From positions 186,001 to 250,000 of the forward strand of contig NZ_NFJQ01000002.1 in the NCBI RefSeq assembly GCF_002159945.1: a stretch of DNA of 64,000 nucleotides, written 5' to 3'. The stretch comes from Cloacibacillus sp. An23 (lineage in GTDB: Bacteria; Synergistota; Synergistia; Synergistales; Synergistaceae). The position numbers and the translations under genes were made by a program. This document shows, one piece after another, positions 35,878 through 51,446 of the stretch. Under the pieces are notes generated by a model. The model was given only the letters and a program-made list of their open reading frames with translations, was not told where the DNA came from and ran no database searches. Each line of letters opens with the position of its first letter. Position 1 is the first letter of the stretch.

Positions 35878-37086
35878 ATGGCAATAACTTTCGACCCGCA
35901 GACGGGGCTGTCCGCAGAGGACAGCGAGACGATACGCGCCGCGATAGTCGCGGACTGGCAGGCGATATTTGACGACGAAGACGCGACGCTCAACACCGAG
36001 CCGGAGTCTCCGGCGGGGCAGATAATCGACTCTCTGACCGCCTTCGTCACGGCTAAGGATACCGAGCTGCTCAACATCGCAAATCAGTTCAATCCGCTTG
36101 TTGCGGACGGACGCTTTCAGGACGCGATTGCGAAGATATATTTCATCACGCGAAAGACCGCCGAACCGACGGTCGTCACGTGCCAGTGTACGGGCTTGCA
36201 GGGTACCGTTATCCCGCAGGGCGCGATAATCCAGAACACGGACGGATACAGGCTTTCCTCGGTCGGCGAGGCCACAATCCCGGACACCGGCGTCGCGAAC
36301 GTCGAGTTTGCGCTCGAGGAGACAGGGCCTATCGACGTCGGCGCGAACACTTGCACGACGATAGTCACGGTCATACCCGGCTGGGACACCGTGAACAACG
36401 CCGTCGCAGGAGTACCTGGGCGCGACGAGGAAAGCCGCGCGGAGTTCGAGGCGCGGCGCTACGCGAGCGTGGCAAACAACGCGCACGGCTCGGTTGCGGC
36501 GGTCTACGGGACGCTGGCTAACATCAACGGCGTGCTCGACGTGGAAGTGCTCGAAAACAGGGGTGACTCGCCCACGACGCTGTGGAGCGTGGAAATACCG
36601 GGGCATTCCGTCGCCATCTGCATTTACGGCGGCGACAACGACGAGATAGCCGAAGCCATCTACATGAAGCTCGGAAACGGCTGCGGCACGACCGGGAACA
36701 CCGAGGTTACGTACACCAACGAGACTGGCGGAGTCTACAACTATTACATTCTGCGCCCCACGCCCCAGCCGGTGCAGGTGCAGGTGACGATACGCGCGAC
36801 GGAGCGCACGCCCGCAACGATAGTCAACGACCTCAAGGCAGCGATAGTCAACGACTTCTACGGCAACGACGAAAATAGCGGCAACACGCGCGTCGGGCTT
36901 GCGGAGGTCGTTTACTCGTCCCGCTTCTCGATAGCCGCCATCAAGACCGCCGGAGTCGTTGACCTAGTGGACATACAGATAGGGCTTAACAACGGCGCTC
37001 TGTCCAATTACATCACGATACCGGGCAACGTCGAGCCGGTGCTTACGGAGGACGACGTGACCGTCGTAATCGAGAACGATGATTGA
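35878..37086 (+). CDS. Baseplate J-like protein
   Basis: A 402-residue wedge protein with FDPQTGLSAEDSETIRAAIV, EPESPAGQIIDSLTAFVTAK, TGLQGTVIPQGAIIQNTDGY and AGVPGRDEESRAEFEARRYA, the standard Baseplate_J/XkdT signature. Builds the baseplate periphery. Its 3' end overlaps the next gene by 8 bp. Confidence 0.88.
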   Translation: MAITFDPQTGLSAEDSETIRAAIVADWQAIFDDEDATLNTEPESPAGQIIDSLTAFVTAKDTELLNIANQFNPLVADGRFQDAIAKIYFITRKTAEPTVVTCQCTGLQGTVIPQGAIIQNTDGYRLSSVGEATIPDTGVANVEFALEETGPIDVGANTCTTIVTVIPGWDTVNNAVAGVPGRDEESRAEFEARRYASVANNAHGSVAAVYGTLANINGVLDVEVLENRGDSPTTLWSVEIPGHSVAICIYGGDNDEIAEAIYMKLGNGCGTTGNTEVTYTNETGGVYNYYILRPTPQPVQVQVTIRATERTPATIVNDLKAAIVNDFYGNDENSGNTRVGLAEVVYSSRFSIAAIKTAGVVDLVDIQIGLNNGALSNYITIPGNVEPVLTEDDVTVVIENDD

Positions 37087-37750
37087 TTTTCACGAGCTCA
37101 ACCTTGAGACGATACAGTCTCAGTACGGCGCGAGCCCGCACCTCCGCGGAATCATCGAGGCGGCGGCGAAGCGTATAGACCCTAACAGCGACATCAACAC
37201 GTTTTACGAGAAGATTTTCAATCTCGACACGGCGGAAGGCATAGGACTCGACATCTGGGGGCAGATAGTCGCCGTTCCGCGCCGCATGTTGGTGCCGAGC
37301 GGCGAATACTTCGGCTTCGACGGCTCACAGCTCAACCCGTTCAACCAAGCGCCGTTTTACAACTCCGCGACCCTGGGCGAGTTCTACGAGCTAGCCGACG
37401 AGGCTTACAGAAAACTCATCTACTACAAGGCTATGGCGAACATCTCCGAGGACACAGCGGAGGCGCAGAACCGGCTGCTGTCGCTGCTCTTCGGCGACGT
37501 GGTAACGTCCATCGGCCTTGAGGGCATCGTCCCAAACGGGATTATGAAGATACGAGTTATCTTCTACTTCTACCTTTCGAGCTACGAAATCGAGATTTTT
37601 AAGAACTACGGCCTGCTCAACCGCGGCGCGGGCGTCGGCTGGGAATACTACCAGATCGACCCCGACCGTACTTTTGGCTTCGACGGCTCAGGCTTACAGC
37701 CGTTTAACCAGGGGACGTTTGACGGCTACGGCATTGTGCAGGGCGCATGA
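37079..37750 (+). CDS. DUF2612 tail protein
   Basis: A 223-residue protein: LNLETIQSQYGASPHLRGII, IFNLDTAEGIGLDIWGQIVA, YRKLIYYKAMANISEDTAEA and two copies of FGFDGS.L.PFNQ. It occupies the gpI/YmfQ position between J and the fibre genes and probably attaches fibres to the baseplate. Confidence 0.78.
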   Translation: MIDFHELNLETIQSQYGASPHLRGIIEAAAKRIDPNSDINTFYEKIFNLDTAEGIGLDIWGQIVAVPRRMLVPSGEYFGFDGSQLNPFNQAPFYNSATLGEFYELADEAYRKLIYYKAMANISEDTAEAQNRLLSLLFGDVVTSIGLEGIVPNGIMKIRVIFYFYLSSYEIEIFKNYGLLNRGAGVGWEYYQIDPDRTFGFDGSGLQPFNQGTFDGYGIVQGA

Positions 37751-37763
37751 AGGAGTGTGAGAC

Positions 37764-38513
37764 ATGGCACAGCCGAATTTTATACCTGAGCCGTTTGCAA
37801 TAAACGGCGATAAGAACACTATCCCGGAGAGCACGACGGCGGGCGCGGCGAGCTGGCAGTTGGGCTTCCCGCCGATAACCGCGCTTCCGCTCGGGGCCGG
37901 AGGCGTGGCCCCCGACCGCAAGGACTTCAACGCCGTCCTTTACGCGCTTTCGGCGCACGCGGTGTTCATGCAGACCGGCGGCGTCTGGACATACGACGCG
38001 CAGCAGAGCTACGCGCCTCCCGCGCTGGTCTACGACGATTCCGACGACAATCTGTATTTCTGCGTCGGAGCCAACGGCCCGAATGGCACGGTGATGGCTC
38101 CGCACTCGGACACGACGGGGCAATACTGGCAAAAAATGCCGTGGGGAGATATGACGTGGCTGTTTGAGCCTATCCCTACGCGGACGGGCGACACTACTTT
38201 CACCGTGGCGGGCGACGCCACAGGCAAGTTCCCGATGGGCAAGCTGCTGCGCTTCAACTCGTCCGACGCTTATCTCTGCCGCGTCTTCGGTTCGCCGGTC
38301 TACGGCAGCGGGCTGACGACGGTCACGGTGTGGTTCGACAACGCTAATAACGTCATACCGTCGCCGATAACGAGGCTCGAGCGCAGCAGGCTTATCCCAG
38401 AGGCTACCGCGCGCGGCGTGGCGCTCGTCACGACGACGCAGTACAGCCAAGACCAGATTACAAAGCTGCTGCAAAGCTACTGCTACAGCTCGGTCACTAT
38501 AAAGGGGGCGTAA
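37764..38513 (+). CDS. Tail fibre stem protein
   Basis: A 249-residue protein with an N-terminal virion-attachment region (PEPFAINGDKNTIPES, FPPITALPLGAGGVAPDRKD, FNAVLYALSAHAV), a carbohydrate-binding-like YFCVGANGPNGTV segment and a helical end. It lies directly before the fibre-tip genes. Probably the invariable stem on which tip proteins act. The next gene starts 4 bp after its stop region. Confidence 0.72.
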   Translation: MAQPNFIPEPFAINGDKNTIPESTTAGAASWQLGFPPITALPLGAGGVAPDRKDFNAVLYALSAHAVFMQTGGVWTYDAQQSYAPPALVYDDSDDNLYFCVGANGPNGTVMAPHSDTTGQYWQKMPWGDMTWLFEPIPTRTGDTTFTVAGDATGKFPMGKLLRFNSSDAYLCRVFGSPVYGSGLTTVTVWFDNANNVIPSPITRLERSRLIPEATARGVALVTTTQYSQDQITKLLQSYCYSSVTIKGA

Positions 38514-38516
38514 GAC

Positions 38517-39086
38517 ATGAGCATACCGATGGACGTTGTTTATGTGCCGGACGAGTACGGCAATCTAATCCAGACCAGGGTCCCGACCGCAATCGGCTTC
38601 CCGACGTGGTTCGCTGGCCCGGAAATCCCGGAGGGCTATCTCTACTGCGACGGCAGCGAGGTCAACCGCAACGTGTACAAGGAGCTCTTTGCCGCCATAG
38701 GCACCACGTGGGGAGCCGGGGATGGTGCGGATACGTTCAACATCCCTGACCTCAGAGGCATCTTTGTGCGCGGCGACGGCGGGGAGAACAATGCGGATTT
38801 GGGAGTGAGGCAGGGTGATGCAATACGGAACATTAAGGGACGGTTGTTTGATTATCTATGGCAAGATGTAAACGGTGGTGATGTACCGATATTATCAGCA
38901 TCTAACAATGGTTGCTTTGGCAACAATACAACTGACACGAATGAAGCGCGAAGTGTAGCGAACCCAAATACAATCAAATTAACCGGTTATGACGGAATTT
39001 TGTTTGACGCTTCGCGTGTTGTCCCCACCGCCGCCGAGAACCGCCCCGTAAATGTCGCGTTAAGACCCTGCATCAGATACGTATAG
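38517..39086 (+). CDS. Tail collar fibre-tip protein A (no poly-G leader)
   Basis: A 189-residue phage tail-collar (PF07484-type) protein: PTWFAGPEIPEGYLYCDGSE, ELFAAIGTTWGAGDGADTFN, IPDLRGIFVRG, and the terminal PVNVALRPCIRYV. The middle (codons 100-165) is more AT-rich and variable, as expected for a receptor-binding part. Unlike the five other tip genes it is coupled tightly to the stem gene and has no G-tract leader, so it should be made always. Confidence 0.85.
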   Translation: MSIPMDVVYVPDEYGNLIQTRVPTAIGFPTWFAGPEIPEGYLYCDGSEVNRNVYKELFAAIGTTWGAGDGADTFNIPDLRGIFVRGDGGENNADLGVRQGDAIRNIKGRLFDYLWQDVNGGDVPILSASNNGCFGNNTTDTNEARSVANPNTIKLTGYDGILFDASRVVPTAAENRPVNVALRPCIRYV

Positions 39087-39100
39087 GAGGAAACAAAACA

Positions 39101-39192
39101 ATGACAGTTAGTATATGCAAACGGGGGGGGGGCGCTCCTCCATAGGACGCAACATATAGTTAACATATCCCGCGCGCGGAGGGCGGACTGAG
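39101..39192 (+). promoter_or_regulatory. Poly-G leader 1 (10 G, out of phase)
   Basis: A leader ORF with SD AGGAGG (39085-39090) and ATG 39101 reads MTVSICKRGGGAPP and stops at TAG 39143-39145. The tract is G10 (39123-39132). With 9 G the same frame would stay open to TGA 39189-39191, one base before the fibre ATG 39193. CGCTCCTCC after the tract can pair, with one bulge, with GGAGGGCG, the fibre gene's SD. Present state: coupling off. Confidence 0.75.
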
Positions 39193-39783
39193 ATGCCGGA
39201 CATCGAGAGCTACGGCGTTGACGAATATGGCCAGTCCTCGGGCGTCAGATCCAGATCGCGCGTGGGTGACATCGTTTTCTCGCCGCGAGCCACCCCGCGC
39301 GCTGGCACGCTGGTCTGCGACGGCTCTGCTGTGTCTCGACAGACGTATAAGGAGCTGTTTGACTTCCTCGGCGTTTCCTGCGGCGCAGGAGATGGCGAGA
39401 CTACGTTTAACTTGCCCGACCTACGCGACGTATGGATACTCTGCGCTGGGACGGAGCACGAGGCGGGGGACCGTGTCGCGGAGGGGCTGCCAAATTTGAC
39501 AGGACAAATACAAGCACGTAATTATTCCAACAACTCAGGCTCGCCAATGCCGCCCAATAACATTGTGGATAGTGGAGTTTATAATGGCGCAGGGTTAATA
39601 TCCACAGAATTCCAATCAGGGGATGAATGGGGAGACGTTTTGAGCACGGGCACCAGCAACACAACCGGGCAAAGGACTACTGTGTTGAGGTTTAACGCAC
39701 AAAACGACAATGACATCTACGGCGCATCCGACCACGTAACGCCCAAAAGCGTGGTGTTGACGCCGTGCATAATCTACGAGTAG
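39193..39783 (+). CDS. Tail collar fibre-tip protein B
   Basis: A 196-residue tail-collar protein: RATPRAGTLVCDGSAVSRQT, ELFDFLGVSCGAGDGETTFN, LPDLRDVWILCAG and the terminal SVVLTPCIIYE. The end (YGASDHVTPKSVVLTPCI) is shared with C and G, while the middle differs. Its own SD is GGAGGG (39177-39183). Preceded by poly-G leader 1, at present out of phase, so expression is predicted to be low. Confidence 0.85.
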   Translation: MPDIESYGVDEYGQSSGVRSRSRVGDIVFSPRATPRAGTLVCDGSAVSRQTYKELFDFLGVSCGAGDGETTFNLPDLRDVWILCAGTEHEAGDRVAEGLPNLTGQIQARNYSNNSGSPMPPNNIVDSGVYNGAGLISTEFQSGDEWGDVLSTGTSNTTGQRTTVLRFNAQNDNDIYGASDHVTPKSVVLTPCIIYE

Positions 39784-39800
39784 ATAGGAGATATTGAACA

Positions 39801-39902
39801 ATGATACAGCATACACGCAGAAAGTGTACACGGGGGGGGGCAATCCTCCCTAGTTAGTAGTCATATAGTAGCCATTTCGCCGCTCTCAGGGAGTGCTGCA
39901 TG
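39801..39902 (+). promoter_or_regulatory. Poly-G leader 2 (9 G, out of phase)
   Basis: SD TAGGAG and ATG 39801; tract G9 (39832-39840). The present frame stops at TAG 39855-39857. With 8 G it stays open to TGA 39901-39903, overlapping the fibre ATG 39903 (TGATG; ATG 39900 gives ATGA). CTCCCT (39846-39851) complements AGGGAG (39888-39893), the fibre SD. Present state: coupling off. Nearly identical to leader 5. Confidence 0.75.
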
Positions 39903-40433
39903 ATGGCCCGCGTCAGAGAGTACGGCGTCGACGAGACCGGCGCGCCGAGCAGCGTACTGCTGGGCTGCGCGATAGGCGACATCATCCCGCACTTCGGCAG
40001 CACGCCGCCGCCTGGGACGCTCGTTTGCGACGGCTCGGAAATCTCGCGCGAGACCTACCACGAGCTTTATGAGGAGATAGGCGCGCTCTGCGGGCCGGGC
40101 GACGGCTCTACGACGTTTAATTTGCCAGACCTGCGCGGGCGGTGGATGGTGGGCGCTGACACAGAACGCGGTGCGGGCGAAGAGGTAGCGGAGGGGCTGC
40201 CGGACATCGTTGGTACAGTTGGATGGGTCAACGACAATTTGTTTACCGTGGCAAGTGGCGCTTTTTCTGGCGTGCCAGGCAAAAACGACTACGGAGTTAT
40301 TGCGCAACCGACTTCGAACACGACTCTGTCTAGAGTGAACTTCAACGCTTCAGCGTCTAACCCTACCTACGGTGCATCCAACCACGTCACGCCCGCGAGC
40401 GTGGCAATTTTGCCATGCATCGTTTACGAGTAA
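39903..40433 (+). CDS. Tail collar fibre-tip protein C
   Basis: A 176-residue (177 from ATG 39900) tail-collar protein: GSTPPPGTLVCDGSEISRET, LYEEIGALCGPGDGSTTFNL, PDLRGRWMVGAD, end YGASNHVTPASVAILPCIVY. N- and C-terminal parts match B and G, with a distinct middle. Controlled by poly-G leader 2, at present out of phase. Confidence 0.85.
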   Translation: MARVREYGVDETGAPSSVLLGCAIGDIIPHFGSTPPPGTLVCDGSEISRETYHELYEEIGALCGPGDGSTTFNLPDLRGRWMVGADTERGAGEEVAEGLPDIVGTVGWVNDNLFTVASGAFSGVPGKNDYGVIAQPTSNTTLSRVNFNASASNPTYGASNHVTPASVAILPCIVYE

Positions 40434-40455
40434 TAATCACAGGAGGACACATACA

Positions 40456-40534
40456 ATGTTAGCATACTGTAAGTATATACGGGGGGGGTAGTCCTCCCCA
40501 GTAGTCATCTCTTTGTTGCCGCGGAGGACGCAAG
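40456..40534 (+). promoter_or_regulatory. Poly-G leader 3 (8 G, out of phase)
   Basis: SD AGGAGG (40441-40446), ATG 40456, tract G8 (40481-40488), stop TAG 40489-40491 right after the tract. With 9 G the frame runs to TGA 40536-40538, overlapping the fibre start 40535 as ATGA. GTCCTCC (40491-40497) is a perfect complement of GGAGGAC (40523-40529), the fibre SD. Present state: coupling off. Confidence 0.75.
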
Positions 40535-41041
40535 ATGATTGGCGTCAGGAGTGGCATCAATGAGTATGGCCAGCCATCGAAGTTCATACTCTCTGGCTAT
40601 GTTGGCGAGTTCAAGTATTTCGGTTTCGAGAGCGTTCCGCCGCACTGCCTTGCCTGTGACGGCAGCGAGGTAAGTCGTGAGACGTACAGCGAGCTTTTCG
40701 CGGTGTTCGGCACGATGTATGGGGCCGGTAACGGGACTACGACGTTCAACTTGCCGGATTTCCGTGGCGCGTTTTTGCGTTGTGTCGGCGGCAATGCAGC
40801 TAATTTAGGAGTATTGCAAGATGCTACTCTCGTTGGTCAATATTGTCTTGGCAACAATGGTTCCCAAATTGCACTTGCTGTGTACCAACGAGATAGCGAA
40901 GGGACGCTTCCAAGGGCAAATACATCATACTCATATACACCAATGGGGTATATACCACAAAGTGAAATTGTAAGCGGAAATATTGGGTGGACATCTCGGC
41001 CACTCAACTATGCAGTCAACATCTGCGTAGTCTACGAATAA
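40535..41041 (+). CDS. Tail collar fibre-tip protein D
   Basis: A 168-residue tail-collar protein: ESVPPHCLACDGSEVSRETY, ELFAVFGTMYGAGNGTTTFN, LPDFRGAFLRCVG, end PLNYAVNICVVYE. The middle and C-terminal coding part (from about 40790) is clearly AT-rich, pointing to a separately acquired receptor-binding module. Controlled by poly-G leader 3, now out of phase. Confidence 0.85.
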   Translation: MIGVRSGINEYGQPSKFILSGYVGEFKYFGFESVPPHCLACDGSEVSRETYSELFAVFGTMYGAGNGTTTFNLPDFRGAFLRCVGGNAANLGVLQDATLVGQYCLGNNGSQIALAVYQRDSEGTLPRANTSYSYTPMGYIPQSEIVSGNIGWTSRPLNYAVNICVVYE

Positions 41042-41071
41042 TCTAAAAATCCCGAAAGGAGCAAATTGAAT

Positions 41072-41941
41072 ATGAGCAACAATCAGCAGGCGGAGAGACC
41101 CGCCGCACCAGTCATATACACCTACGACAAGACCACCGGCGAGTACAAGCCGGAGGCAAAGGCCACGTGCCAGTGGTCACCTCGCGAAAATAAGTGGCTT
41201 ATCCCCGCAGCGGCCACGACCACAGAGCCGCCGACCGCGGGCGAGAAGCAGGCCGCGTGCTTTGACGCAGCCTCCAAAGCGTGGACGCTCATGCCCGACC
41301 ACCGCGGCGAGAAGTGGTACGACAAGGCCACGCGCGAGCTGCACGAAATCAAGGACATCGGCGTCGAGCCTGACGAAACCGTATGGACACAGACCGAACC
41401 GAAAGACGGTGAATCCGTCTGGGACGAGGAAACCGGCGGCTGGGTAATCCCGCCCGAAGTGCAGGAGCGCCGCAACCTCGCAGAGGCACAGCGGCAGGCC
41501 AACGACATAATCACAGCCGCCATGCAGCGCAGCGCCGTGCAGACGATGTCATTTTCCGCCGCTGAATTTAAGACCTTTGCCAAGGCTAGACTCTTTGACG
41601 AGTGGCAGGCGGGCGAGACCTACGAGGCCGGATACCGCCTCGTCCACGAGGGCGTCGTCTATGAGGTAATCCAGCAGGTCACGGCAATCGAGACGCAGCC
41701 GCCGAGCGCGGAGGGTATGCTCGCGATATATCGCCCGCTCTCGGTAGACAGCGAGACCGGCGATGAGCCGGACGGCACGCTCGAAAATCCGTACACCTAT
41801 CTGGACGGCATGGACGTGTACAACGGCAAATATTACAGCTACAACGGCAAAATCTACTTAGCCAAAGCAGACATGCTACCGTGTACATGGGCACCGGGCA
41901 CGGCAGGCCTCTGGCAGTGGGAAGAGGTCACGGAGGCATAA
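41072..41941 (+). CDS. Tail fibre assembly-like protein with carbohydrate-binding end
   Basis: A 289-residue protein (ATG 41072; SD AAGGAG, no G-tract leader). The N-terminal half has repeated short fibre-assembly-like motifs (YDKTTGEYKPEAKATCQWSP, WVIPPEVQERRNLAEAQRQA). The C-terminal half carries two carbohydrate-binding-like units of the CBM5/12 kind (EWQAGETYEAGYRLVHEGVV and YYSYNGKIYLAK...W.P). It is probably a chaperone or accessory fibre shared by the tip proteins. Confidence 0.68.
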   Translation: MSNNQQAERPAAPVIYTYDKTTGEYKPEAKATCQWSPRENKWLIPAAATTTEPPTAGEKQAACFDAASKAWTLMPDHRGEKWYDKATRELHEIKDIGVEPDETVWTQTEPKDGESVWDEETGGWVIPPEVQERRNLAEAQRQANDIITAAMQRSAVQTMSFSAAEFKTFAKARLFDEWQAGETYEAGYRLVHEGVVYEVIQQVTAIETQPPSAEGMLAIYRPLSVDSETGDEPDGTLENPYTYLDGMDVYNGKYYSYNGKIYLAKADMLPCTWAPGTAGLWQWEEVTEA

Positions 41942-41944
41942 ATA

Positions 41945-42049
41945 ATGACATTACGTAATGTATACGGGGGGGCGCTCTGTGGTAAACACTATCGCAGAGT
42001 ATGCAACCTAAGACAACATAGAGCAGTTTCAGCAAGGGAGGCGCGATAG
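41945..42049 (+). promoter_or_regulatory. Poly-G leader 4 (7 G, in phase)
   Basis: SD GGAGG (41932-41936), ATG 41945, tract G7 (41966-41972). The 34-codon leader is open to TAG 42047-42049, directly followed by the fibre ATG 42050 (TAGATG). Either 6 or 8 G would stop early. The fibre SD lies in a perfect 9-bp stem, AAGGGAGGC (42034-42042)/GCCTCCCTT (42053-42061), with the start codon in the loop; a ribosome finishing the leader would melt it. Present state: coupling on, the only one of five. Confidence 0.8.
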
Positions 42050-42580
42050 ATGGCCTCCCTTATTTCTTCCGGCATTGACGAGTACGGCAATGCGAACGAA
42101 GTCCATCTGCCTGACTTCACCGGCTGCTTACTCTTGGCCACGACACCGACGCCACCCGCTGGCACACTTGTAGCGGATGGCAGCGAGGTCTCGCGCGAGG
42201 CCTACGCCAAGCTCTTCGCCATCTTCGGCACACAGTACGGCGCGGGGGACGGTGTGAGCACGTTTGCGCTGCCGGACTGGAGAGACGAGTTCCCGCGCTT
42301 CAACGGGACGAGCCGGACGGTGGGGAGTACGCAGGGGGACGCGATAAGGGATATGTCCGGTTTATTCGGAGCTGATTCAAATGGTATATTTACCCGGGCC
42401 ACAGGGTGTTTTACTGGCATTCCGCGACTAACGGACACATCTATGGCGACACAACCCGACACAAGTGTGGGAGGACAGTATCGACAGGTAACATTAAGTC
42501 TTGCCAATGCCGGTATTCCGACCGCCGACGAAAACCGCCCGCGGAACGTGGCGTTCCTGCCATGCGTAATATATGTGTGA
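42050..42580 (+). CDS. Tail collar fibre-tip protein F (predicted expressed)
   Basis: A 176-residue tail-collar protein: TPTPPAGTLVADGSEVSREA, KLFAIFGTQYGAGDGVSTFA, LPDWRDEFPRFNG, end PRNVAFLPCVIYV. The middle is AT-richer and variable. Its leader is in phase in this sequence, so besides protein A this should be the tip protein made by the sampled population. Its first codons form one arm of the SD-sequestering stem. Confidence 0.85.
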   Translation: MASLISSGIDEYGNANEVHLPDFTGCLLLATTPTPPAGTLVADGSEVSREAYAKLFAIFGTQYGAGDGVSTFALPDWRDEFPRFNGTSRTVGSTQGDAIRDMSGLFGADSNGIFTRATGCFTGIPRLTDTSMATQPDTSVGGQYRQVTLSLANAGIPTADENRPRNVAFLPCVIYV

Positions 42581-42598
42581 TAAGGAGAATAATAAACC

Positions 42599-42701
42599 AT
42601 GATACAGATAACAATTAGAAAGTGTACACGGGGGGGGGGCAACCCTCCCTAGTTAGCAGTCAAATAGTAGTCATTTCGCCGCTCTCCGGGAGGGCTGCGT
42701 G
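42599..42701 (+). promoter_or_regulatory. Poly-G leader 5 (10 G, out of phase)
   Basis: SD AAGGAG, ATG 42599, tract G10 (42630-42639), stop TAG 42650-42652. With 8 or 11 G the frame runs to TGA 42700-42702, overlapping ATG 42702 (TGATG). CCCTCCC (42643-42649) is a perfect complement of GGGAGGG (42688-42694), the fibre SD. Present state: coupling off. Confidence 0.75.
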
Positions 42702-43301
42702 ATGGCTTACTACTCGACCTACATGCAGAACGAGAACGGAGAGATGCAGAAAGTAGTCATCAACGCGGGCGTGGGCTTCGTCCTCCCATACTATGGCGAG
42801 ACGGCCCCGCCCGGCACTCTGGCGTGTGACGGCTCGGAGGTAAGCCGCGAGGCGTACAAGGAGCTTTTCGCCGTTCTCGGCACCAAGGCGGGCGCTGGGG
42901 ACGGTGTATCGACATTCAATCTGCCTGACATGCGCGGGCGGTGGCTGGCGGGTGCAGATGCAGAGCGTACAGCGGGGGCATCGATAGCAGAAGGATTGCC
43001 GGATTTATACGGTTCTCTAATATTTAGACCATTAGCGTCTGGTACTTATCCTAACATTGTATATGCGGCGTTAGTTAATCTTGGCTCATCAGGCGTTTTT
43101 ACCAAAAGCGATGCAGCAGAGAATCCCGGCTGCTGGTCTTCTGCAGTTGCGATAGGACTATCTGCCCCTTCATCTGCCGGTAATGCTATCGGTGGAGAAG
43201 TTGTGCGATTTCACGCGCAAAATGCTAACCCTATCTATGGTGCTTCCCAGAACGTCACGCCTGCGAGCGTGGCGGTGCTCTGGTGCATCATCTACGAGTA
43301 G
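42702..43301 (+). CDS. Tail collar fibre-tip protein G
   Basis: A 199-residue tail-collar protein (ATG 42702; GTG 42699 is also possible): GETAPPGTLACDGSEVSREA, ELFAVLGTKAGAGDGVSTFN, LPDMRGRWLAGAD, end YGASQNVTPASVAVLWCIIY. The C-terminal sequence matches B and C except for Trp in place of Pro before the last Cys. Last gene of the fibre array, under poly-G leader 5. Confidence 0.85.
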   Translation: MAYYSTYMQNENGEMQKVVINAGVGFVLPYYGETAPPGTLACDGSEVSREAYKELFAVLGTKAGAGDGVSTFNLPDMRGRWLAGADAERTAGASIAEGLPDLYGSLIFRPLASGTYPNIVYAALVNLGSSGVFTKSDAAENPGCWSSAVAIGLSAPSSAGNAIGGEVVRFHAQNANPIYGASQNVTPASVAVLWCIIYE

Positions 43302-43321
43302 TGCGACAACAGTATCAGCCG

Positions 43322-43351
43322 AAAGAGCCTCTTCAGAGGCTCTTTATTTTT
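43322..43351 (+). terminator. Terminator after the fibre array
   Basis: AAAGAGCCTCT (43322-43332) pairs with AGAGGCTCTTT (43335-43345), followed by TTTATTTTT. Ends the structural operon. Confidence 0.85.
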
Positions 43352-43358
43352 GTCATGC

Positions 43359-43376
43359 GGAGCCCTTCGGGGCTCC
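43359..43376 (+). terminator. Second hairpin with UUCG tetraloop
   Basis: GGAGCCC, TTCG, GGGCTCC: a C(UUCG)G tetraloop hairpin followed by GTTGCTTTTT. It sits 25 bp before the endolysin start and could be a second terminator or an mRNA stabiliser for the lysis genes. Confidence 0.6.
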
Positions 43377-43400
43377 GTTGCTTTTTGAGAGGTGATAACT

Positions 43401-43970
43401 TTGGACGAAAAATATTCATCCGCGCTCTCGTTCGTGCTCTCTAACGAGGGCGGCTACGTAGACGATCCGCACGACCGAGGCGGCGAGACCAACATGGGCA
43501 TAACCGCCTCCACAATGCGACGAGCCTACAATGACGGCCTGGTCAAGCATACCGACGTTAAGACGCTCACGCGAGACGAGGCCGCCGTCATATACGAGCG
43601 CTATTACTGGCAGCCGTCACACGCCTGCGACATGGATTCTCCGCTCTGCACGCTGCACTTCGACGCGGCGGTCAACCACGGGCTCGGCGGGGCTGCGAAG
43701 CTCTTGCAGAGAACCATCAACAACTACGCCGCGAAGGCCGGTATCGGCGTGCGCGTAGACGTAGACGGAGCCGTCGGGACGAAGACGCTTTCGGCACTCT
43801 GCCAGTGTCTCGACCTCAAGGGCAACGTGTCGCTGATATGCGAAATCTACTGCAACGAGCGTGAAAAATACTATCGCGCCATCGTCGAAAGCAACCCGTC
43901 GCAGGCGAAGTTCCTGCGCGGCTGGCTGAACAGGCTGGCGCGCAACCGCGAACTCATAGGCGAGAGATAG
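43401..43970 (+). CDS. Endolysin, glycosyl hydrolase family 108
   Basis: A 189-residue muramidase with the GH108 N-terminus: FVLSNEGGYVDDPHDRGGET (catalytic Glu in NEGGY), NMGIT, YERYYWQP, FDAAVNHG, then the peptidoglycan-binding end with DVDGAVGTKTL and FLRGWLNRL. Start TTG 43401 is chosen over GTG 43392 because GAGAGGTGA is then correctly spaced. No signal peptide, so export depends on a holin. Cuts the glycan strand at lysis. Confidence 0.9.
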   Translation: MDEKYSSALSFVLSNEGGYVDDPHDRGGETNMGITASTMRRAYNDGLVKHTDVKTLTRDEAAVIYERYYWQPSHACDMDSPLCTLHFDAAVNHGLGGAAKLLQRTINNYAAKAGIGVRVDVDGAVGTKTLSALCQCLDLKGNVSLICEIYCNEREKYYRAIVESNPSQAKFLRGWLNRLARNRELIGER

Positions 43971-43981
43971 GAGGCGGACGC

Positions 43982-44329
43982 ATGGGCGATGAAGACCTTC
44001 GCGCGTGGGTGACGGCTCAGGGCGCGCAGCTGCGAAAAATAGAGAGCACCGTAGAAGCCATGCGCATCGAGCTGCAATCCAGGAGCAGCCAAGCCCATGC
44101 GGACATATATACGCGCATAAACTCAATGGAAAAAGAAATCTCAGAGATAAAAGCGCAGCAAGCGCAGATAATGCCGCTTATAGAATCCATAAAACATCAC
44201 ATAGAGACCGACGTGCCCGTAGACGCTGCGCGTGACAAGGCCATCGCTCACGGAGTCATATACGTGCTCGGGCTAGGTGTAAGCGGCTTCATCGGCTGGC
44301 TTTTCTCCCATCTCGGAGGAGGAAAATGA
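43982..44329 (+). CDS. XhlA-like membrane-anchored coiled-coil protein
   Basis: A 115-residue protein: long coiled coil (residues 10-75, IESTVEAMRIEL, INSMEKEISEIKAQQAQIMP) and a C-terminal membrane segment GVIYVLGLGVSGFIGWLFSH. Resembles hemolysin XhlA-type proteins in lysis cassettes. Starts after GGAGG; overlaps the next start (ATGATG). Confidence 0.65.
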   Translation: MGDEDLRAWVTAQGAQLRKIESTVEAMRIELQSRSSQAHADIYTRINSMEKEISEIKAQQAQIMPLIESIKHHIETDVPVDAARDKAIAHGVIYVLGLGVSGFIGWLFSHLGGGK

Positions 44330-44667
44330 TGACACTGAAAGCTATCGCGCGCGCGGCTCTCAAGCCCTTTCGCGACCTCGCCTCGATACTCTACGACGAC
44401 TTAGAGTTCCGAGCTATGTCCCTGCCTCGCGTCGCGGCGGCTGTGCTCACTGGCATGATAGTCTGGTGCGTTGCCGTCTGGGTGCGCGCAGACCGCATGT
44501 TCCCGGGGTTCTCGGAACTATGCGCCCTCACAGGCGGCATCTGGGGCGCGTATCTTTTCAAGCGCCGCGCCAACCCGCCGGAAGCGGGAAAGTGTGAAGG
44601 AGGCGAACTACCTCAACATGACGAAGATAATGACGGCAGTCAAGACGACGCTCAAAAAAGCGGCTGA
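44326..44667 (+). CDS. Holin-like membrane protein
   Basis: A 113-residue protein with two membrane segments (residues 33-51 and 60-80, AAVLTGMIVWCVAVWV; LCALTGGIWGAYLF) and a charged C-terminal tail, the form of a class II holin. Located between endolysin and the spanin-like genes. ATGATG start coupled to the previous gene. Confidence 0.65.
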   Translation: MMTLKAIARAALKPFRDLASILYDDLEFRAMSLPRVAAAVLTGMIVWCVAVWVRADRMFPGFSELCALTGGIWGAYLFKRRANPPEAGKCEGGELPQHDEDNDGSQDDAQKSG

Positions 44668-45881: not shown

Positions 45882-46790
45882 ATGAATAATTATGTTCCCG
45901 GCCTTAAAAACGCTCTGAAAAAAGCAGGCGTCACACAAAACGAACTCGCATCTGAGATGGGGGTAGCTCTCGTAACCGTCTCCCGCTGGGTGCGCGGCGA
46001 AGTGGAGCCGCCGGTATCCACCATAAAAGAAATTGCGCAAATTCTCGGCTGCTCGCTCTATGAGCTTCTCGGCTTGGTTCCTACCATAGCCGGATGTCAC
46101 ATATCCGAGGTGCGTGAAAAAGAGGGACAGAGAATTATAACTGTGGTAATCGACGAAAAAGAAAGGAGAAAAAACACAATGACGAGACCCTTAGCCGGCG
46201 AACTGATAAACAAGACCTTAAACGACATTTCCCCTGAAGCGTTCAAGACCGCCCGTGCAAGCACGAAGCAGGAGGAGCAACAGATTCTTGAAATCATTGA
46301 TATAAAGCGGGGGCGTATCAAAAAACGCATCGCGGACGAGAATATATGCGAAGACAGCGACCGATTCATGGATCGTGAAGAAGAGTTGCTAAAAGAGACC
46401 GGAATCAACGCGCTCCGTAAAGACTGGGAACAGGCGTCAAACGCCTATTCGGAACTCTGCCGCCCGATAAAATACTGGAAACGCCACGCATTGGCGCTCA
46501 CCGGACGGACACGCAATCTCTATGAGCAAAGAGACGTGACTCTGAATGACATCAACGCCATGCTCGATGGCTCGGAGGATTACGAAAAAGAAACGGTCAC
46601 TCTCGAAGACGGACGCATATTCCGCTTGATACGCGACGACAACGGATACTATTATGGCGACGACGGCAGCGTTATCTCGGCGATAGACCTTATCCGCACC
46701 GACGAAAACGGCGAACCTCTCAAGGTTGTGGCTCGCCTGGGCTATGTCCCCATCGGCGGTTGCGGAACATACGAAGCAACGTCGTGTTAG
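45882..46790 (+). CDS. XRE-family regulator with long C-terminal region
   Basis: A 302-residue protein. Residues 5-65 are a Cro/CI-type helix-turn-helix (LKNALKKAGVTQNELASEMG, VTVSRWVRGE, IAQILGCSLYELL). The remaining 230 residues are helical and acidic and not a peptidase-type LexA tail. A strong internal SD (AAAGGAG) and ATG 46179 could start a separate 203-residue protein without the HTH. Probably the lysogeny regulator acting at the palindromes near 45461-45504. Confidence 0.68.
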   Translation: MNNYVPGLKNALKKAGVTQNELASEMGVALVTVSRWVRGEVEPPVSTIKEIAQILGCSLYELLGLVPTIAGCHISEVREKEGQRIITVVIDEKERRKNTMTRPLAGELINKTLNDISPEAFKTARASTKQEEQQILEIIDIKRGRIKKRIADENICEDSDRFMDREEELLKETGINALRKDWEQASNAYSELCRPIKYWKRHALALTGRTRNLYEQRDVTLNDINAMLDGSEDYEKETVTLEDGRIFRLIRDDNGYYYGDDGSVISAIDLIRTDENGEPLKVVARLGYVPIGGCGTYEATSC

Positions 46791-46805
46791 TGTTGGAGAA
46801 CGCTA

Positions 46806-48089
46806 ATGGCTAAATACACTATCACCTTTTCCTGCGGTCACGAGGGCGTAGTCAACCTCTTCGGCAAATCAGCCGATAGAGAGGACAAAATCCGCTGGTA
46901 CGAAGAACACGCTCTGTGCCCCGCGTGTTACGAAAAATCTCTGAAAGAGGCGCGTGAAAAACAGCAGGCTCAACTCAAGGAGCGCGCCGAAGAACTCGGG
47001 CTCCCGGAGCTTACGGGGACGGAGAAGCAGATAAAATGGGCGACGGAAATCCGAGGAAATTTCTCGGACGGCATCACGAAAAATCTCGGCTACTACTCGA
47101 AAAAGCCAAAAGCGCAGCGCGCCATAAACGCATGGGCGTCTTTCTGCTACTCGCACGACAAAGCGAGTTGGTGGATAGAACACAGGGAGATGGCGGAATC
47201 CACCGTCGAGCTTGTCGGCAATATAATGAGCGGCATCGCGGCGCTAATAAAAAGCGGCACGCCCGGAACTGTCCTTGACGGCCTGACCGACGAAGAGCTC
47301 GGCATCTTTGCGGACAGGGCCGCGCGGGGCGAAGAGATAAAGATAGGCGTCACTCCCGTCACCAAAGACGAGATAGACGCTCTCGAAGAGACCGAGGCCG
47401 AAAGGCGCGCATCCTGCACCGTCAAGCCCGAAGAGGTCAAATCTCAGATACACGCGGAAATCAGCATCCGCAAGCTCGAGGGCGGCAGGCAGATCGTCGT
47501 CTCGACGCCCGAGCGCATAGAAGAAGTCGTCGAGCTCGTGAAGGGCCGCCTCGGCTACAAGTGGGCCTCCGGCGCGTGGCGCGGAAACTACGATGAAGAC
47601 AACCCCGTCATCGACGACAGAGTATGCGAGATAGCCGCGAAGATACTCAAATGCGGCTACGCGGTCGAGCTGCCGAAAAAAGAGCTCGTCGCGCGCGTCA
47701 TAAACGGAGAATATAAGCCGTATAACCCGCGCAGGATTTTTAAGTTAGGCGAGGATAAGTTCATCGTCTACTGGGGCAAAGACGAAGACTGGTACCGCGG
47801 AGCTAAACGTCTCCCCGGTGCGAAGTGGAACAGTGAAAAAGGGGGCGTCGTCGTCCCCGGCAAAAGCTGGGCGCTCGTCGAAGACTTCGCCGAGCGCAAC
47901 AAGTTCGACCTCTCGCCCGGCGCGCAGGAGCTTATCGCCGTCTCCAAAGAGGCCGACCGTAAGGCCCTCGTCTGCGAAGACATAAAAACGCCTGAAACGG
48001 AAACGCATCCGGTCCCCGGCAGAATCCCGAAGCTCGAGGCGAAAGAAGAAGCGGTCGACGCGAGTCTCGTAGACGATGAGGCAGATTAA
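46806..48089 (+). CDS. Zinc-finger protein with HARP-like C-terminus, helicase partner
   Basis: A 427-residue protein. The N-terminus has FSCGHEG and CPACYEK, a zinc knuckle. The middle is helical. The C-terminal 130 residues contain two segments of the kind seen in HARP/SMARCAL1-type modules (GRLGYKWASGAWRG; KRLPGAKWNSEKGGVVVPGK, then ALVEDFAERN). It overlaps the SNF2 helicase gene by 14 bp, suggesting a HARP plus SNF2 pair split over two genes. The HARP assignment is by eye. Confidence 0.6.
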   Translation: MAKYTITFSCGHEGVVNLFGKSADREDKIRWYEEHALCPACYEKSLKEAREKQQAQLKERAEELGLPELTGTEKQIKWATEIRGNFSDGITKNLGYYSKKPKAQRAINAWASFCYSHDKASWWIEHREMAESTVELVGNIMSGIAALIKSGTPGTVLDGLTDEELGIFADRAARGEEIKIGVTPVTKDEIDALEETEAERRASCTVKPEEVKSQIHAEISIRKLEGGRQIVVSTPERIEEVVELVKGRLGYKWASGAWRGNYDEDNPVIDDRVCEIAAKILKCGYAVELPKKELVARVINGEYKPYNPRRIFKLGEDKFIVYWGKDEDWYRGAKRLPGAKWNSEKGGVVVPGKSWALVEDFAERNKFDLSPGAQELIAVSKEADRKALVCEDIKTPETETHPVPGRIPKLEAKEEAVDASLVDDEAD

Positions 48090-49581
48090 CACAACGACAC
48101 AGCTCTTACCGCACCAGCAGGCGGCGGTCGATAAGGTCAGAGGTATAAAGGTCTCCGGGCTTTTCATGGACATGGGCACGGGTAAGACGCGCACGGTCAT
48201 AGAGCTCGCCAAGCTCCGCGCGCCGCGCATAGACCATGTGCTCTGGATATGCCCTGTGTCTCTTAAAGAGACGGTTCGGCGCGAGATAATGAAACACACG
48301 GACTGCACGCCGGAGGATATATACGTCTTCGGCGACAAGACCGACTCCGCTCTGCCGAAAGACAAGCTCTGGTATATAGTCGGCATAGAGAGCTTTTCGT
48401 CGTCCTCGCGCGTCACGATGGCGGCGAACGCGATAATCACCGACAAGACATTCGTAGTCATGGACGAGAGCAGCTACATCAAGGGACACAACGCCATCCG
48501 CACGCGGCGCGTCACGCTGCTCGCGGAAAAGGCGAAATACCGCACGATACTCACCGGCACGCCGCTCACACAGGGCATCGTTGACCTCTTCTCACAGATG
48601 TACTTCCTCTCGCCGAAGATACTCGGCTACAAGAGCTTTTACTCCTTCGAGGCCAACCATCTCGAATACCATCCGAAGCGTCCTGGGCTCGTAGTCAGAG
48701 CGCACAACGTCCCGTATCTTGCCGAGAAGATAAAGCCCTACGTCTACCAGTGTACGAAAGACGAGTGCATGGAGATCCCCGACAAGCTCTACAAAACGCG
48801 CTGGGTACGCCTCACGGACGAGCAGGAAGAGGCATACGAGGCGGCAAAAGAAAAATTCGAGCACGACATGGACGAACTCGAAAGCCGCTACACCATAAGC
48901 TATATGAGCGACGACTACCCGGATTCCTTCTGGCGTAGAAGCTCCATGCTCATATTCCGTCTCTTTACGAGCCTCCAGACCATAGTCTGCGGCTTCGAGC
49001 GCGTAAGAACGGGCAGGGACAGCTTCGAGCTCAGGCGGTACGACAGCCGCAGGACGGAGGCCCTTCTCGACGTCGTCCGCTCACTGCCGGAAGATAAGGT
49101 CATCGTCTGGGCGAAATATCTCAACTCGATAGAAGACATTTCAGAAGCCCTTTGCGAAGAATACGGGAAGGAAAAGGTCTGCCTCTATCACGGCGGGCTC
49201 AACGCGAAGCAGCGCGACGCCGAGCTTGACCGCTTCGAGGCGAAGGACGGGGCTCGCTTTCTAGTGGCGACTCAAAGCTGCGGCGGCCACGGGCTCAACC
49301 TCCAGTTCTGCCGCTGGCAGATATTCTTCGCAAACGGCTTCAAGTACTCCGAGCGGCTGCAGGCCGAAGACCGCTGTCACAGACACGGACAAAGGCGGCA
49401 CGTTACTTACATAGACCTCTGCGCCTCAGACACGATAGACGAGAAAATAGATGAAGCGCTTACGAAAAAGGGCAGCCTTCTCGACGCCTTCCGGCGCGAG
49501 GTGAAGCGGATAAAAGACGACAAGGACACAGGCAAGGCTGATAAAGTGAAAAAGCTGAAGGAGATGGTGAGGAAGCTGTGA
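48076..49581 (+). CDS. SNF2-family helicase
   Basis: A 501-residue SF2/SNF2 ATPase: LLPHQQAAVDKV (Q-like), Walker A MDMGTGKT near residue 33, motif II VVMDESSY, motif III LTGTPLTQ, HGG..A..R (motif IV), VATQSCGGHGLNLQ (motif V) and QAEDRCHRHGQ (motif VI). The helicase core is complete. It probably remodels or anneals DNA with the preceding protein. Overlaps the IbrA-like gene by ATGA-type coupling (GTG start 49578). Confidence 0.9.
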   Translation: MRQINTTTQLLPHQQAAVDKVRGIKVSGLFMDMGTGKTRTVIELAKLRAPRIDHVLWICPVSLKETVRREIMKHTDCTPEDIYVFGDKTDSALPKDKLWYIVGIESFSSSSRVTMAANAIITDKTFVVMDESSYIKGHNAIRTRRVTLLAEKAKYRTILTGTPLTQGIVDLFSQMYFLSPKILGYKSFYSFEANHLEYHPKRPGLVVRAHNVPYLAEKIKPYVYQCTKDECMEIPDKLYKTRWVRLTDEQEEAYEAAKEKFEHDMDELESRYTISYMSDDYPDSFWRRSSMLIFRLFTSLQTIVCGFERVRTGRDSFELRRYDSRRTEALLDVVRSLPEDKVIVWAKYLNSIEDISEALCEEYGKEKVCLYHGGLNAKQRDAELDRFEAKDGARFLVATQSCGGHGLNLQFCRWQIFFANGFKYSERLQAEDRCHRHGQRRHVTYIDLCASDTIDEKIDEALTKKGSLLDAFRREVKRIKDDKDTGKADKVKKLKEMVRKL

Positions 49582-50879
49582 AGACGGGAAAAACTTATAC
49601 GAACATAAACGTATACGAGGCGGCGCAGAAGAGGCTCGACTACATCTTCGGCGAGTTCGACCGCGTGCTCGTCGCCTTCTCCGGCGGCAAGGACTCGGGC
49701 GTCTGCCTCAACCTCTGCTACGAGTACGCGAAAGAGCGCGGCCTGCTGGGCAAGCTCGCCATGTACCACATCGACTACGAGGCTCAGTACAGAGCCACGA
49801 CCGAGTTCGTTGAAAAGACCTTCGCGGCGTTCCCCGGCATAGAAAAATACTGGTGCTGTATGCCGGTAGGCGCAAGCTGCGCCTGCAGCATGACCGGGGC
49901 GTACTGGTATCCCTGGGAGAAGGCGAAAAAAGAGATCTGGGTGCGCCCGATGCCCGACAACGAGTTCGTCGTCAACGAGGACAACTGCAAGGCCCCTTTT
50001 ACCCCGGGAGACAGCGATTACGTCTTTCAGGAAAACTTCTCGAAGTGGTACGCGAAGGAGAACGGACGCACCGCGGTCGTCGTCGGCATACGCGCGACGG
50101 AGAGCCTCAGCCGCTACAGCGCGGTGGCAAGGATAGACAAAACGACCGGCTATAAGGGGAAGAGCTGGCTCACCGAGGTAGACGGCTCCACCGTCAACGC
50201 TTACCCGATATACGACTGGGAGACGGCGGATGTATGGATAGCAAACGCGAAATTCGGATGGGACTATAACAAGCTCTATGACCTCTACTACATGGCGGGC
50301 GTCCCGGTCGAGCAGATGCGCGTCGCATCTCCGTTCCACCAGTGCGGCGCGGCGAGCCTCCGGCTGTATAAGGTCATTGACCCGTCTACTTGGGCGAAGA
50401 TGGTCGGGCGCGTCAACGGCGTCAACTTCACCGCGATATACGGGGACACGATAGCTATGGGCTGGAAGGATATAAAACTTCCGGCGGGCCACACGTGGAA
50501 GTCGTATTACGAGTTCCTGCTCACGACGATGGACAAGGCCACAGCGGAACACTATGACGACGTGCTCCGGCGCAGCAAGAAATACTGGATGGAGAAGGGC
50601 GGCGGAGTCAGGAAAGAGACGGTCAAGGAAATAATGCAGACAATACCGGGCGTCGAGCACGTCGGTCCCTCGAAGCAGTACGAGGGTCGCGAGATACTGC
50701 GCTTTTCGGAGTACCCGGACGACATAGACTGCTCCGAGTTCACTGTCGTGCCGTCCTACAAGCGTATGTGTATTTGCATAATGAAAAACGACTATTACTG
50801 TAAATACGCCGGCTTCGGCCCGACGAAGGAAGCGACGGTCAAGCGCCGCAAGGCGATGGAGAAATACAAGAATTTATAA
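49578..50879 (+). CDS. PAPS reductase-like protein (IbrA/DUF3440 type)
   Basis: A 433-residue protein with the PP-loop SGGKDSGVCLNL near residue 32, GIRATESLSRYS near residue 170, DWETADVWIANAKFGWDYNK, FHQCGAASLRL and DUF3440-like C-terminal helices. IbrA proteins are adenine-nucleotide alpha-hydrolases encoded next to ParB-like IbrB, as here. In E. coli prophages IbrA/IbrB activate expression of other genes; the biochemical reaction is not settled. GTG start overlaps the helicase stop. Confidence 0.82.
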   Translation: MKTGKTYTNINVYEAAQKRLDYIFGEFDRVLVAFSGGKDSGVCLNLCYEYAKERGLLGKLAMYHIDYEAQYRATTEFVEKTFAAFPGIEKYWCCMPVGASCACSMTGAYWYPWEKAKKEIWVRPMPDNEFVVNEDNCKAPFTPGDSDYVFQENFSKWYAKENGRTAVVVGIRATESLSRYSAVARIDKTTGYKGKSWLTEVDGSTVNAYPIYDWETADVWIANAKFGWDYNKLYDLYYMAGVPVEQMRVASPFHQCGAASLRLYKVIDPSTWAKMVGRVNGVNFTAIYGDTIAMGWKDIKLPAGHTWKSYYEFLLTTMDKATAEHYDDVLRRSKKYWMEKGGGVRKETVKEIMQTIPGVEHVGPSKQYEGREILRFSEYPDDIDCSEFTVVPSYKRMCICIMKNDYYCKYAGFGPTKEATVKRRKAMEKYKNL

Positions 50880-50912
50880 CAGAGATAAGAGGGAACGGAA
50901 GGAAGGATATAA

Positions 50913-51446
50913 ATGTTCAGAAGCCCGGCTTATGATGTGAGACCCGTCCCGGTGGAACGGATACGCGCGAACGAGTATAACCCGAACTCCGTCGCGCCGC
51001 CTGAGATGAAGCTGCTTTATAAATCCATACTCGAGGACGGCTATACTATGCCCATCGTCTGCTACTACATCCCCGAGGAGGACGTCTACGAGATAGTAGA
51101 CGGGTTTCACCGCTGGATGACGATGCTTAAGCACAAGGACATTTACGAGCGCGAGCACGGAATGATACCAGTGACTGTCATTGACAAGGACATATCAAAC
51201 CGCATGGCGAGCACAATACGGCACAACCGCGCGCGCGGCACGCACGACGTGGAGCTGATGAAAAACATCGTCGCGGAGCTCGTCGAGGCGGGGATGTCCG
51301 ACGCGTGGATAATGAAAAACATCGGCATGGACGCCGAAGAGCTGCTCCGGCTGAAACAGATCTCCGGTCTTGCGGCGCTTTTCAAAGACAAAGAGTTCTC
51401 TCGCTCATGGGAGGCCGACAATGCCGAAGAAGACGATAACCTATAG
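50913..51446 (+). CDS. ParB-like nuclease domain protein (IbrB type)
   Basis: A 177-residue ParB/Srx-fold protein: PVPVERIRANEYNPNSVAPP, YTMPIVCYYIPEEDVYEIVD, GFHRW and IRHNRARGTHD, then a helix-turn-helix (MSDAWIMKNIGMDAEELLRL). Directly after the IbrA-like gene, it completes an IbrA/IbrB pair. AAGGAAGG precedes ATG 50913. Its 3' end overlaps the GNAT gene. Confidence 0.82.
   Translation: MFRSPAYDVRPVPVERIRANEYNPNSVAPPEMKLLYKSILEDGYTMPIVCYYIPEEDVYEIVDGFHRWMTMLKHKDIYEREHGMIPVTVIDKDISNRMASTIRHNRARGTHDVELMKNIVAELVEAGMSDAWIMKNIGMDAEELLRLKQISGLAALFKDKEFSRSWEADNAEEDDNL

Follow-up and report, generated by a model that had tools for sequence, protein, structure and literature searches.

Leader reading frames with G tracts before tail-fibre genes of a Cloacibacillus prophage: a probable slipped-strand switch of phage fibre tips

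Introduction

Contingency loci of Campylobacter, Neisseria and Helicobacter contain runs of G or C whose length sets the reading frame, and their surface-exposed products are found in random on and off states. Phages are known to vary their receptor-binding tips by invertases (gin of Mu, cin of P1 and the shufflons) and by diversity-generating retroelements (DGRs), and the causes usually given for a change of phage host range are point mutation, recombination, inversion and retroelements. Here we describe an array of short tail-fibre genes in a prophage of Cloacibacillus sp. An23, five of which are each preceded by a small leader open reading frame (ORF) that runs into a G tract. The array lies in a 64-kb stretch of DNA (contig NZ_NFJQ01000002.1, positions 186,001 to 250,000), analysed at its full length of 64,000 nucleotides (nt) and called the window below. 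It resembles the contingency loci in having runs of a single base with the frame set by tract length. In those loci, however, the tract lies inside the gene and the frame decides the protein itself, whereas in the window a separate leader ORF contains the tract, which would act through re-initiation at the gene behind; also unlike those loci, the genes concerned encode phage fibre tips.

Results

The five tract-preceded genes all encode a tail collar domain (PF07484) as judged by Pfam, and their leaders, numbered 1 to 5 in the order of the genes (Table 1), contain tracts of G10, G9, G8, G7 and G10. All five leaders share one design, consisting of a Shine-Dalgarno (SD) sequence, an ATG, 21-31 nt, the G run, a spacer of 46-77 nt and then the fibre gene, and in every case the leader ATG is SD-led with a frame open into the tract. 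Beyond the tract one phase is open and two are closed at each leader (5/5). The stop of the open phase lies at -4, +1, +1, -3 and +1 relative to the fibre start for leaders 1-5, respectively, or at -2 for the alternative starts ATG 39903 of gene 2 and ATG 42702 of gene 5, and the remaining two phases end 33-67 nt upstream of the fibre start (5/5). In the open phase the leader stop thus overlaps or abuts the downstream start, as in translationally coupled genes. In the assembly one of the five leaders, leader 4, is in its open phase. An earlier note on this DNA had described SD-led leaders with runs of 7-10 G and a single open phase before five collar genes, with junctions TGA-G-ATG, TGATG, ATGA, TAGATG and TGATG; a recount confirmed the former and phase analysis agreed for all five of the latter.

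GGGGGGG was matched 14 times when both strands of the 64 kb were scanned, each time inside one of the five tracts, against a mean of 4.9 matches in shuffled sequence, in which 14 was reached in 1 of 100 shuffles. No G7 or C7 run was present elsewhere in the window, and this rarity of long homopolymers outside the tracts is what characterizes a slipped-strand locus. Dinucleotide-preserving shuffles of the spacers gave junction probabilities of 0.18, 0.31, 0.66, 0.13 and 0.40 (product 0.0019). The leaders are also not all independent, since 2 and 5 are duplicates with 91% identity across 76 nt. The five junctions taken alone are therefore suggestive, not conclusive, and the view in the earlier note that they could hardly be chance was overstated. 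The alternative of pure chance, with G-rich intergenic DNA and accidental short ORFs, draws on this modest figure (approximately 0.002, or 0.005 if leaders 2 and 5 count as one, before choice of target), but the lack of any further G7 or C7 run in 64 kb and the recurrence of the design in other species and phages make chance extremely improbable. The junctions in the window are modest evidence by themselves, and the main weight comes from relatives.

Near-identical leaders with like flanks were found on two further, small contigs of the same genome, C24 and C25, before another gene that is truncated on both contigs and was called fibre-like from its resemblance to neighbouring tip pieces. The C24 tract is G10, with the open phase read and an ATGA junction, and that of C25 is G11 and closed. 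A search with the C24-type fibre piece matched 6 of 178 genomes of the order and led to genomes G150 and G015, which represent two further species, both from one different genus of this family, and whose leaders precede other short fibre genes (the one tested matched phrog_2712, tail fiber). Two G150 loci had G10 versus G11 as their sole difference, the flanks being identical over 514 bp on the upstream side and 644 bp on the downstream side. Similarly, two IMG/VR contigs, L381 and L423, of which one is from a metagenome and the other, by its number, from an isolate, were 98.3% identical over 4.8 kb and had tracts of G12 and G10, respectively, while neither the spacer nor the leader, counted from its ATG, had changed despite the two-G difference. 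Invariant tract lengths among related prophages, which the earlier note had named as grounds for rejecting a switch, were thus not observed. In G015 one tract was interrupted and one leader tract was reduced to G4, as expected if these were decaying switches. A sequence-only leader model built on nine leaders (own genome, G150 and G015 type) matched 7 of the 178 genomes, with 7 places in the own genome, 4 in G150, 3 in G015 and one or two weaker matches in each of four more (G010, G139, G140 and G078, the last a flagellin leader described below).

These length differences also bear on whether the polymerase or the ribosome might slip on the G run and yield mixed frames in every cell, with fibres always partly made and no heritable switch. 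Long G runs are slippery in principle, and the strong SD sequences of the fibre genes suggest some basal expression. Against this, it is the genomic tract lengths that differ between identical copies, and the interrupted tract and the lost tract of G015 are as expected when the DNA itself drifts, so that slippage during expression is a distinctly improbable explanation.

On C24 and C25 (loci L055 and L056) fibre end pieces were also seen in opposite orientations, with common GSNANG motifs, which suggests an invertible fibre array of a second prophage that also has G-tract leaders. Other routes to relatives yielded little. The neighbouring DUF2612 protein identified 33 IMG/VR loci, one being the prophage itself, and 1 of the 178 genomes (the own), and only the prophage passed the leader scan. 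The pattern ACG7..CCTCC in 180 genomes gave 6 sites in the own genome (0 with the reversed-pattern control) and approximately 54 in the others versus approximately 68 in the control; one genome locus from this search, L077, passed the leader scan but had no such junction. Among the 74 IMG/VR stretches with this pattern only the own prophage passed the leader scan. A pattern scan of genome contigs returned 46 stretches with one coupled case (L283), the rest being in-frame, unclear or leaderless, and the C24-type fibre piece gave 3 IMG/VR stretches matching a pattern, none of them a relative.

Among other phages in IMG/VR the leader-tract design precedes short tail genes, of which some encode a collar domain. 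UViG_3300018479_000107 contains three tandem genes for proteins of 109-124 amino acids, with leaders of G9, G9 and G11 in states on, off and on, preceded by a tail module (read by eye) and followed by an endolysin-like gene. Six fibre-like genes of UViG_3300006204_000008 each follow a tract and a spacer, and for five of them a script located a leader ATG with an SD. UViG_2636415739_000001 has two tracts with ATGA junctions and an SD-led ATG before only one. In UViG_2501651219_000001 and UViG_2513237299_000003 tracts precede collar-domain genes, and in both an apparent tractless collar gene and a fibre-assembly gene adjoin, by eye, as in the window; the two may be distant relatives of the window phage. 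The six fibre-like genes of UViG_3300006204_000008 (L354, L356-L360) are spread approximately 6-21 kb apart over a 79-kb contig and are not in tandem.

When ten downstream proteins of the wider IMG/VR sample analysed below were compared with PHROGs, six matched a tail-labelled family, a seventh matched unknown-function and virion-structure families with one weak tail (baseplate) match, one matched an unknown-function family and two had no match. Neither the G180 and G181 proteins nor one G182 protein had a PHROG match, and a tip role for these is consequently read from position and size. INPHARED contained no close record for the window locus (26 records, with 1-2% of the query covered among the 20 listed) and no match for the G181 protein, the G180 region or L476; L423 and L388 gave weak tail-gene matches.

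The retention of an open phase was assessed on a wider sample of 118 IMG/VR loci, chosen among the matches listed by SD-ATG-G10 only. These contained 122 distinct tracts passing the leader test, of which 69 were in-frame, 14 geneless, 11 near an end and 28 followed by a separate SD-led gene. The open phase ended at the gene start in 24 of these 28, versus 9.5 expected by shuffling (P 4e-10), a value that overstates the case; natural polyG-free gaps are the fair control. Cases in which the open phase reached at least 25 codons upstream were excluded, which removed 4 cases from the 28 with a tract and 70 from the 144 control gaps and left 20/24 tract cases versus 20/74 control gaps (odds ratio 13.5, Fisher p 1.4e-6). 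Only 7 of the 24 coupled cases are now in the open phase and 17 are not, near one in three, and the spacer phase is therefore kept although the tract drifts. A switch would predict just this, an open phase that is retained while most of the sampled genomes read another.

The same design was found before genes of another kind. Three flagellin genes of other species have a leader, a G tract and an ATGA junction (Pfam was run on two). One, in G078, has a G13 leader before a gene with PF00669; two more, L262 and L269 (the latter Pfam-tested), came from an order-wide pattern search that matched 34 of 178 genomes and in which tract classification was limited to the loci fetched. Flagellin expression may thus be phase-variable by the leader-tract design. 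A flagellin-like start behind a leader in L256 belongs to a gene cut short at 50 codons and was not counted as a flagellin case. The leaders of L231, L262, L269 and L256 have tracts of G9-G13 and an ATGA junction.

It could be argued that leader-tract units are mere homologous joints for the shuffling of fibre cassettes, with the phase incidental, given that leaders 2 and 5 are duplicates and that the fibre genes are alike N-terminally and diverge towards the tip. However, leaders before proteins as unlike as collar fibres, flagellin and other short genes have the design in common and not the sequence, and the open phase is enriched, leaving this explanation very improbable.

The fibre genes of the window have strong SD sequences (-7.7 to -11.3 kcal/mol), and those of the genes behind the C24, C25, G150 and G015 leaders reach only -5.1 to -6.8 kcal/mol; coupling is therefore likely to be tighter in these relatives than in the window. 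A further possibility is that the tract tunes access to the leader or fibre SD through RNA structure, by way of the G run and a downstream CCTCC, and not through the reading frame. CCTCC occurs 3' of the tract in leaders 1, 2, 3 and 5 and those of C24 and C25, and the predicted folds of leaders 1, 3 and 5 show a short hairpin between the G run and a CCTCC-like sequence; but leader 4 and the flagellin leaders have no post-tract CCTCC, and CCTCC within 18 nt of the tract was seen in only 1 of the 24 coupled IMG/VR leaders, so that the hairpin is not general. In leaders 1, 2, 3 and 5 the sequence that follows the tract shows more complementarity to the fibre SD than most shuffled versions do (p 0.05, 0.04, 0.01 and 0.006, respectively), and in some relatives the leader or gene SD pairs partly with this sequence (0.77 and 0.34 for G150b), yet for none of the five window leaders did the folds predict such pairing of the fibre SD (probability 0.00). 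The notion that CCTCC behind the tract sequesters the fibre SD, attractive by eye, was rejected as it differs from the predicted fold, in which the G run pairs with pyrimidines directly 3' of the tract and not with the fibre SD. There is precedent for tracts acting as RNA in the regulation by RepG of a G repeat in the Helicobacter pylori tlpB mRNA (described in portions of PMC8295292). Control through RNA structure would nevertheless leave the retention of one open phase to the start codon unexplained, and we regard it as unlikely.

The window is part of a prophage with terminase, Mu F-like head protein, baseplate J, DUF2612 and integrase (52822-54075) genes. Six short PF07484 collar genes lie downstream of the baseplate genes and are followed by a lysin, and a tail-fibre-assembly gene sits between the fourth and fifth of the six. 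The first collar gene is presumed to be always on. The earlier note was silent on both this tractless sixth collar gene and the fibre-assembly gene. Promoter-like sites in the array region showed no excess over chance, and neither did the terminator scan overall.

Table 1. Coordinates of the fibre array in the window
Feature	Position	Strand	Evidence and remarks
First collar fibre gene	38517..39086	+	PF07484 2e-20; no G7 run upstream
Leader ORF 1 as now read, ending right after the tract	39101..39145	+	SD AGGAGG, ATG, open into tract; current phase closed
G10 tract 1	39123..39132	+	Homopolymer scan
Collar fibre gene 1; open-phase junction TGA-G-ATG; OFF in assembly	39193..39783	+	PF07484 1.4e-15
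Leader ORF 2 through end of its G9 tract (39832-39840)	39801..39840	+	Phase analysis
Collar fibre gene 2, start ATG 39900 or 39903; OFF	39900..40433	+	PF07484 1.2e-17; stop +1 of 39900
Leader ORF 3 through end of its G8 tract (40481-40488)	40456..40488	+	Phase analysis
Collar fibre gene 3; junction ATGA; OFF	40535..41041	+	PF07484 4.3e-20
Tail fibre assembly (Tfa-like) gene, between tract-preceded genes 3 and 4	41066..41941	+	phrog_105 2e-28
Leader ORF 4, G7 tract 41966-41972; in phase, 34 codons, TAG abuts fibre ATG	41945..42049	+	ORF list
Collar fibre gene 4; sole one of five with leader now in open phase	42050..42580	+	PF07484 3.7e-17
Leader ORF 5 through end of its G10 tract (42630-42639); paralogue of leader 2	42599..42639	+	Phase analysis
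Collar fibre gene 5, start GTG 42699 or ATG 42702; OFF	42699..43301	+	PF07484 5.5e-19
Two terminator-like hairpins 3' of the array	43322..43378	+	Consensus scan, 10 and 9 pairs; whole scan 8 versus 6.5 in shuffles

Two observations were made elsewhere in the window. The C-terminal half of the Mu F-like head protein (20679-22436) gave a weak match to an intein splicing domain, below the curated cut-off. A cargo-like block at 45882-51446 encodes a helix-turn-helix regulator, a 427-amino-acid unknown protein, an SNF2 helicase, DUF3440 with PAPS reductase and a ParB-like protein, and we take it to be akin to IbrA/IbrB gene pairs.

The own genome is also likely to have tract-switched host genes. 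A G10 tract (L049:1510-1519, C6:47009) lies within a long ORF carrying a type I specificity domain (PF01420), likely a phase-variable restriction-modification gene. Tracts of C9 (L048:1596-1604) and C11 (L051:1574-1584) occur just after the start of two large proteins that are surface-like by eye and have signal-peptide-like starts; both genes are likely phase-variable in frame. Finally, SD-led leaders with C9-C10 were observed upstream of YadA-like adhesin genes on C4, C8 and C1 (L047:1505-1700, L052, reverse, 1942-2140, and L045:1505-1700, respectively). YadA_head was found by Pfam in both proteins tested (L047 and L045), L052 was assigned by eye, and L045 has an intervening gene. One phase after the tract is open for 131-140 nt, with the peptide end MQYxxxxDD(S/G) in all three, and L047 has a strong hairpin and then a T run inside the open phase. 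Phase-variable switching through transcription attenuation is possible at these leaders and would be a separate finding.

Discussion

From the tracts, leaders and junctions, the enriched open phase, the length differences between otherwise identical copies and the recurrence in phages, we infer that each tract-bearing leader of the array is an independent slipped-strand switch, which acts by coupling translation of the fibre gene to that of the leader, a reading to which we give a probability of roughly 0.77. A ribosome would start on the leader ORF, where the G tract would set its reading frame. In one phase of three it would cross the 46-77 nt spacer, end on or beside the fibre start codon and re-initiate there, and the fibre tip would be made; in the other two phases it would meet a stop soon after the tract and coupling would be lost. 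Replication slippage would alter the tract by one or a few G, and the five variable tips, placed behind one collar fibre that is presumed to be always on, would be on or off in a combination particular to each virion lineage, with a presumed change of receptor. The earlier proposal that gain or loss of one G toggles coupling is upheld as far as tract length varies in relatives and the design recurs with tail genes and flagellin; the dependence of the fibre on its leader, switching within the population and the change of receptor are the parts that we infer.

Several points weigh against this interpretation. The leader pairs 2 and 5, C24 and C25, and the two G150 loci are non-independent, and a second copy of the window prophage in IMG/VR, identical over 16.6 kb, is probably from the same assembly. 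Homopolymer sequencing errors could mimic one-G differences, above all in G150. Natural polyG-free gaps also scored high before small real genes were excluded (58/91 and 90/144), because such genes end at the next start. The tract of UViG_2636415739_000001 that lacks an SD-led ATG fits the in-frame kind too, as one of its phases runs on for 326 codons without a stop. The mean unpaired probability of the fibre SD in the window ranges from 0.08 (gene 4) to 0.67 (gene 1), and because these SD sequences are strong the OFF state may be leaky, with leader-independent initiation possible at the fibre gene.

If slipped-strand switching of the fibre leaders is true, one lysogen line would be able to release virions with different tip sets and no dedicated enzyme. 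A prophage assembly would then be one of many expression states, here with one of five switchable tips in phase. Such leaders are easily missed by gene callers, leader 4 having 34 codons and the others fewer as now read. The leader-ORF tract design is probably a variant of slipped-strand phase variation common in phages, and it may serve phages and their hosts alike in varying attachment.

Unstable tracts have been reported in phages. In KIL-like Pseudomonas phages a G stretch of 6-13 G is seen in Illumina reads, a host-range mutant differs from its parent only in homopolymer lengths, and tracts of a PB1-like baseplate gene and a Bordetella phage methylase are also named (sections of PMC4791379). 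The sole tract of at least 7 G in the KIL3 record (G13) follows the DNA polymerase gene, whereas in the window the tract lies in a leader before the fibre gene. KIL3 was therefore rejected as a precedent for the leader-fibre arrangement, and the KIL phages are a precedent for unstable phage tracts and not for this design. Closer in the role of the leader are iraD and the ORF of a Salmonella Mg2+ transporter, where translation of a short ORF likewise controls the gene behind; those leaders answer to regulators or stress (PMC5574718 and PMC8092293), whereas in the window the frame is set by an unstable tract. A leader-ORF tract before phage fibre genes was not found described in the parts consulted of the open-licence PubMed Central literature, including PMC7882524, PMC10877375, PMC4546147, PMC3711429, PMC4791379 and PMC6286511, which agrees, within those sources, with the earlier note, to which no described phage system of exactly this design was known.

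That note had also claimed variation without invertase or reverse transcriptase, and the results of the searches made agree with this. No pair of inverted repeats of at least 20 nt was present in 36500-44500, as inversion-type fibre switching would call for; the resolvase family had one match in the own genome, on contig C12 and thus on another contig than the array; and the one tyrosine-type recombinase among the 30 window proteins given to Pfam is the prophage integrase. Reverse transcriptase (PF00078), the hallmark of DGRs, had no match in the own genome, whose assembly is estimated to be 99% complete. Whereas the invertases of Mu and P1, the shufflons and DGRs rearrange or mutate tips, the window array would switch whole tips on or off. 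Recurring in phages that share little sequence, and having its design in common with flagellin genes, leader-coupled G-tract switching may well prove to be a third widespread phage route to varied receptor-binding tips, beside inversion and DGRs and with no dedicated enzyme.

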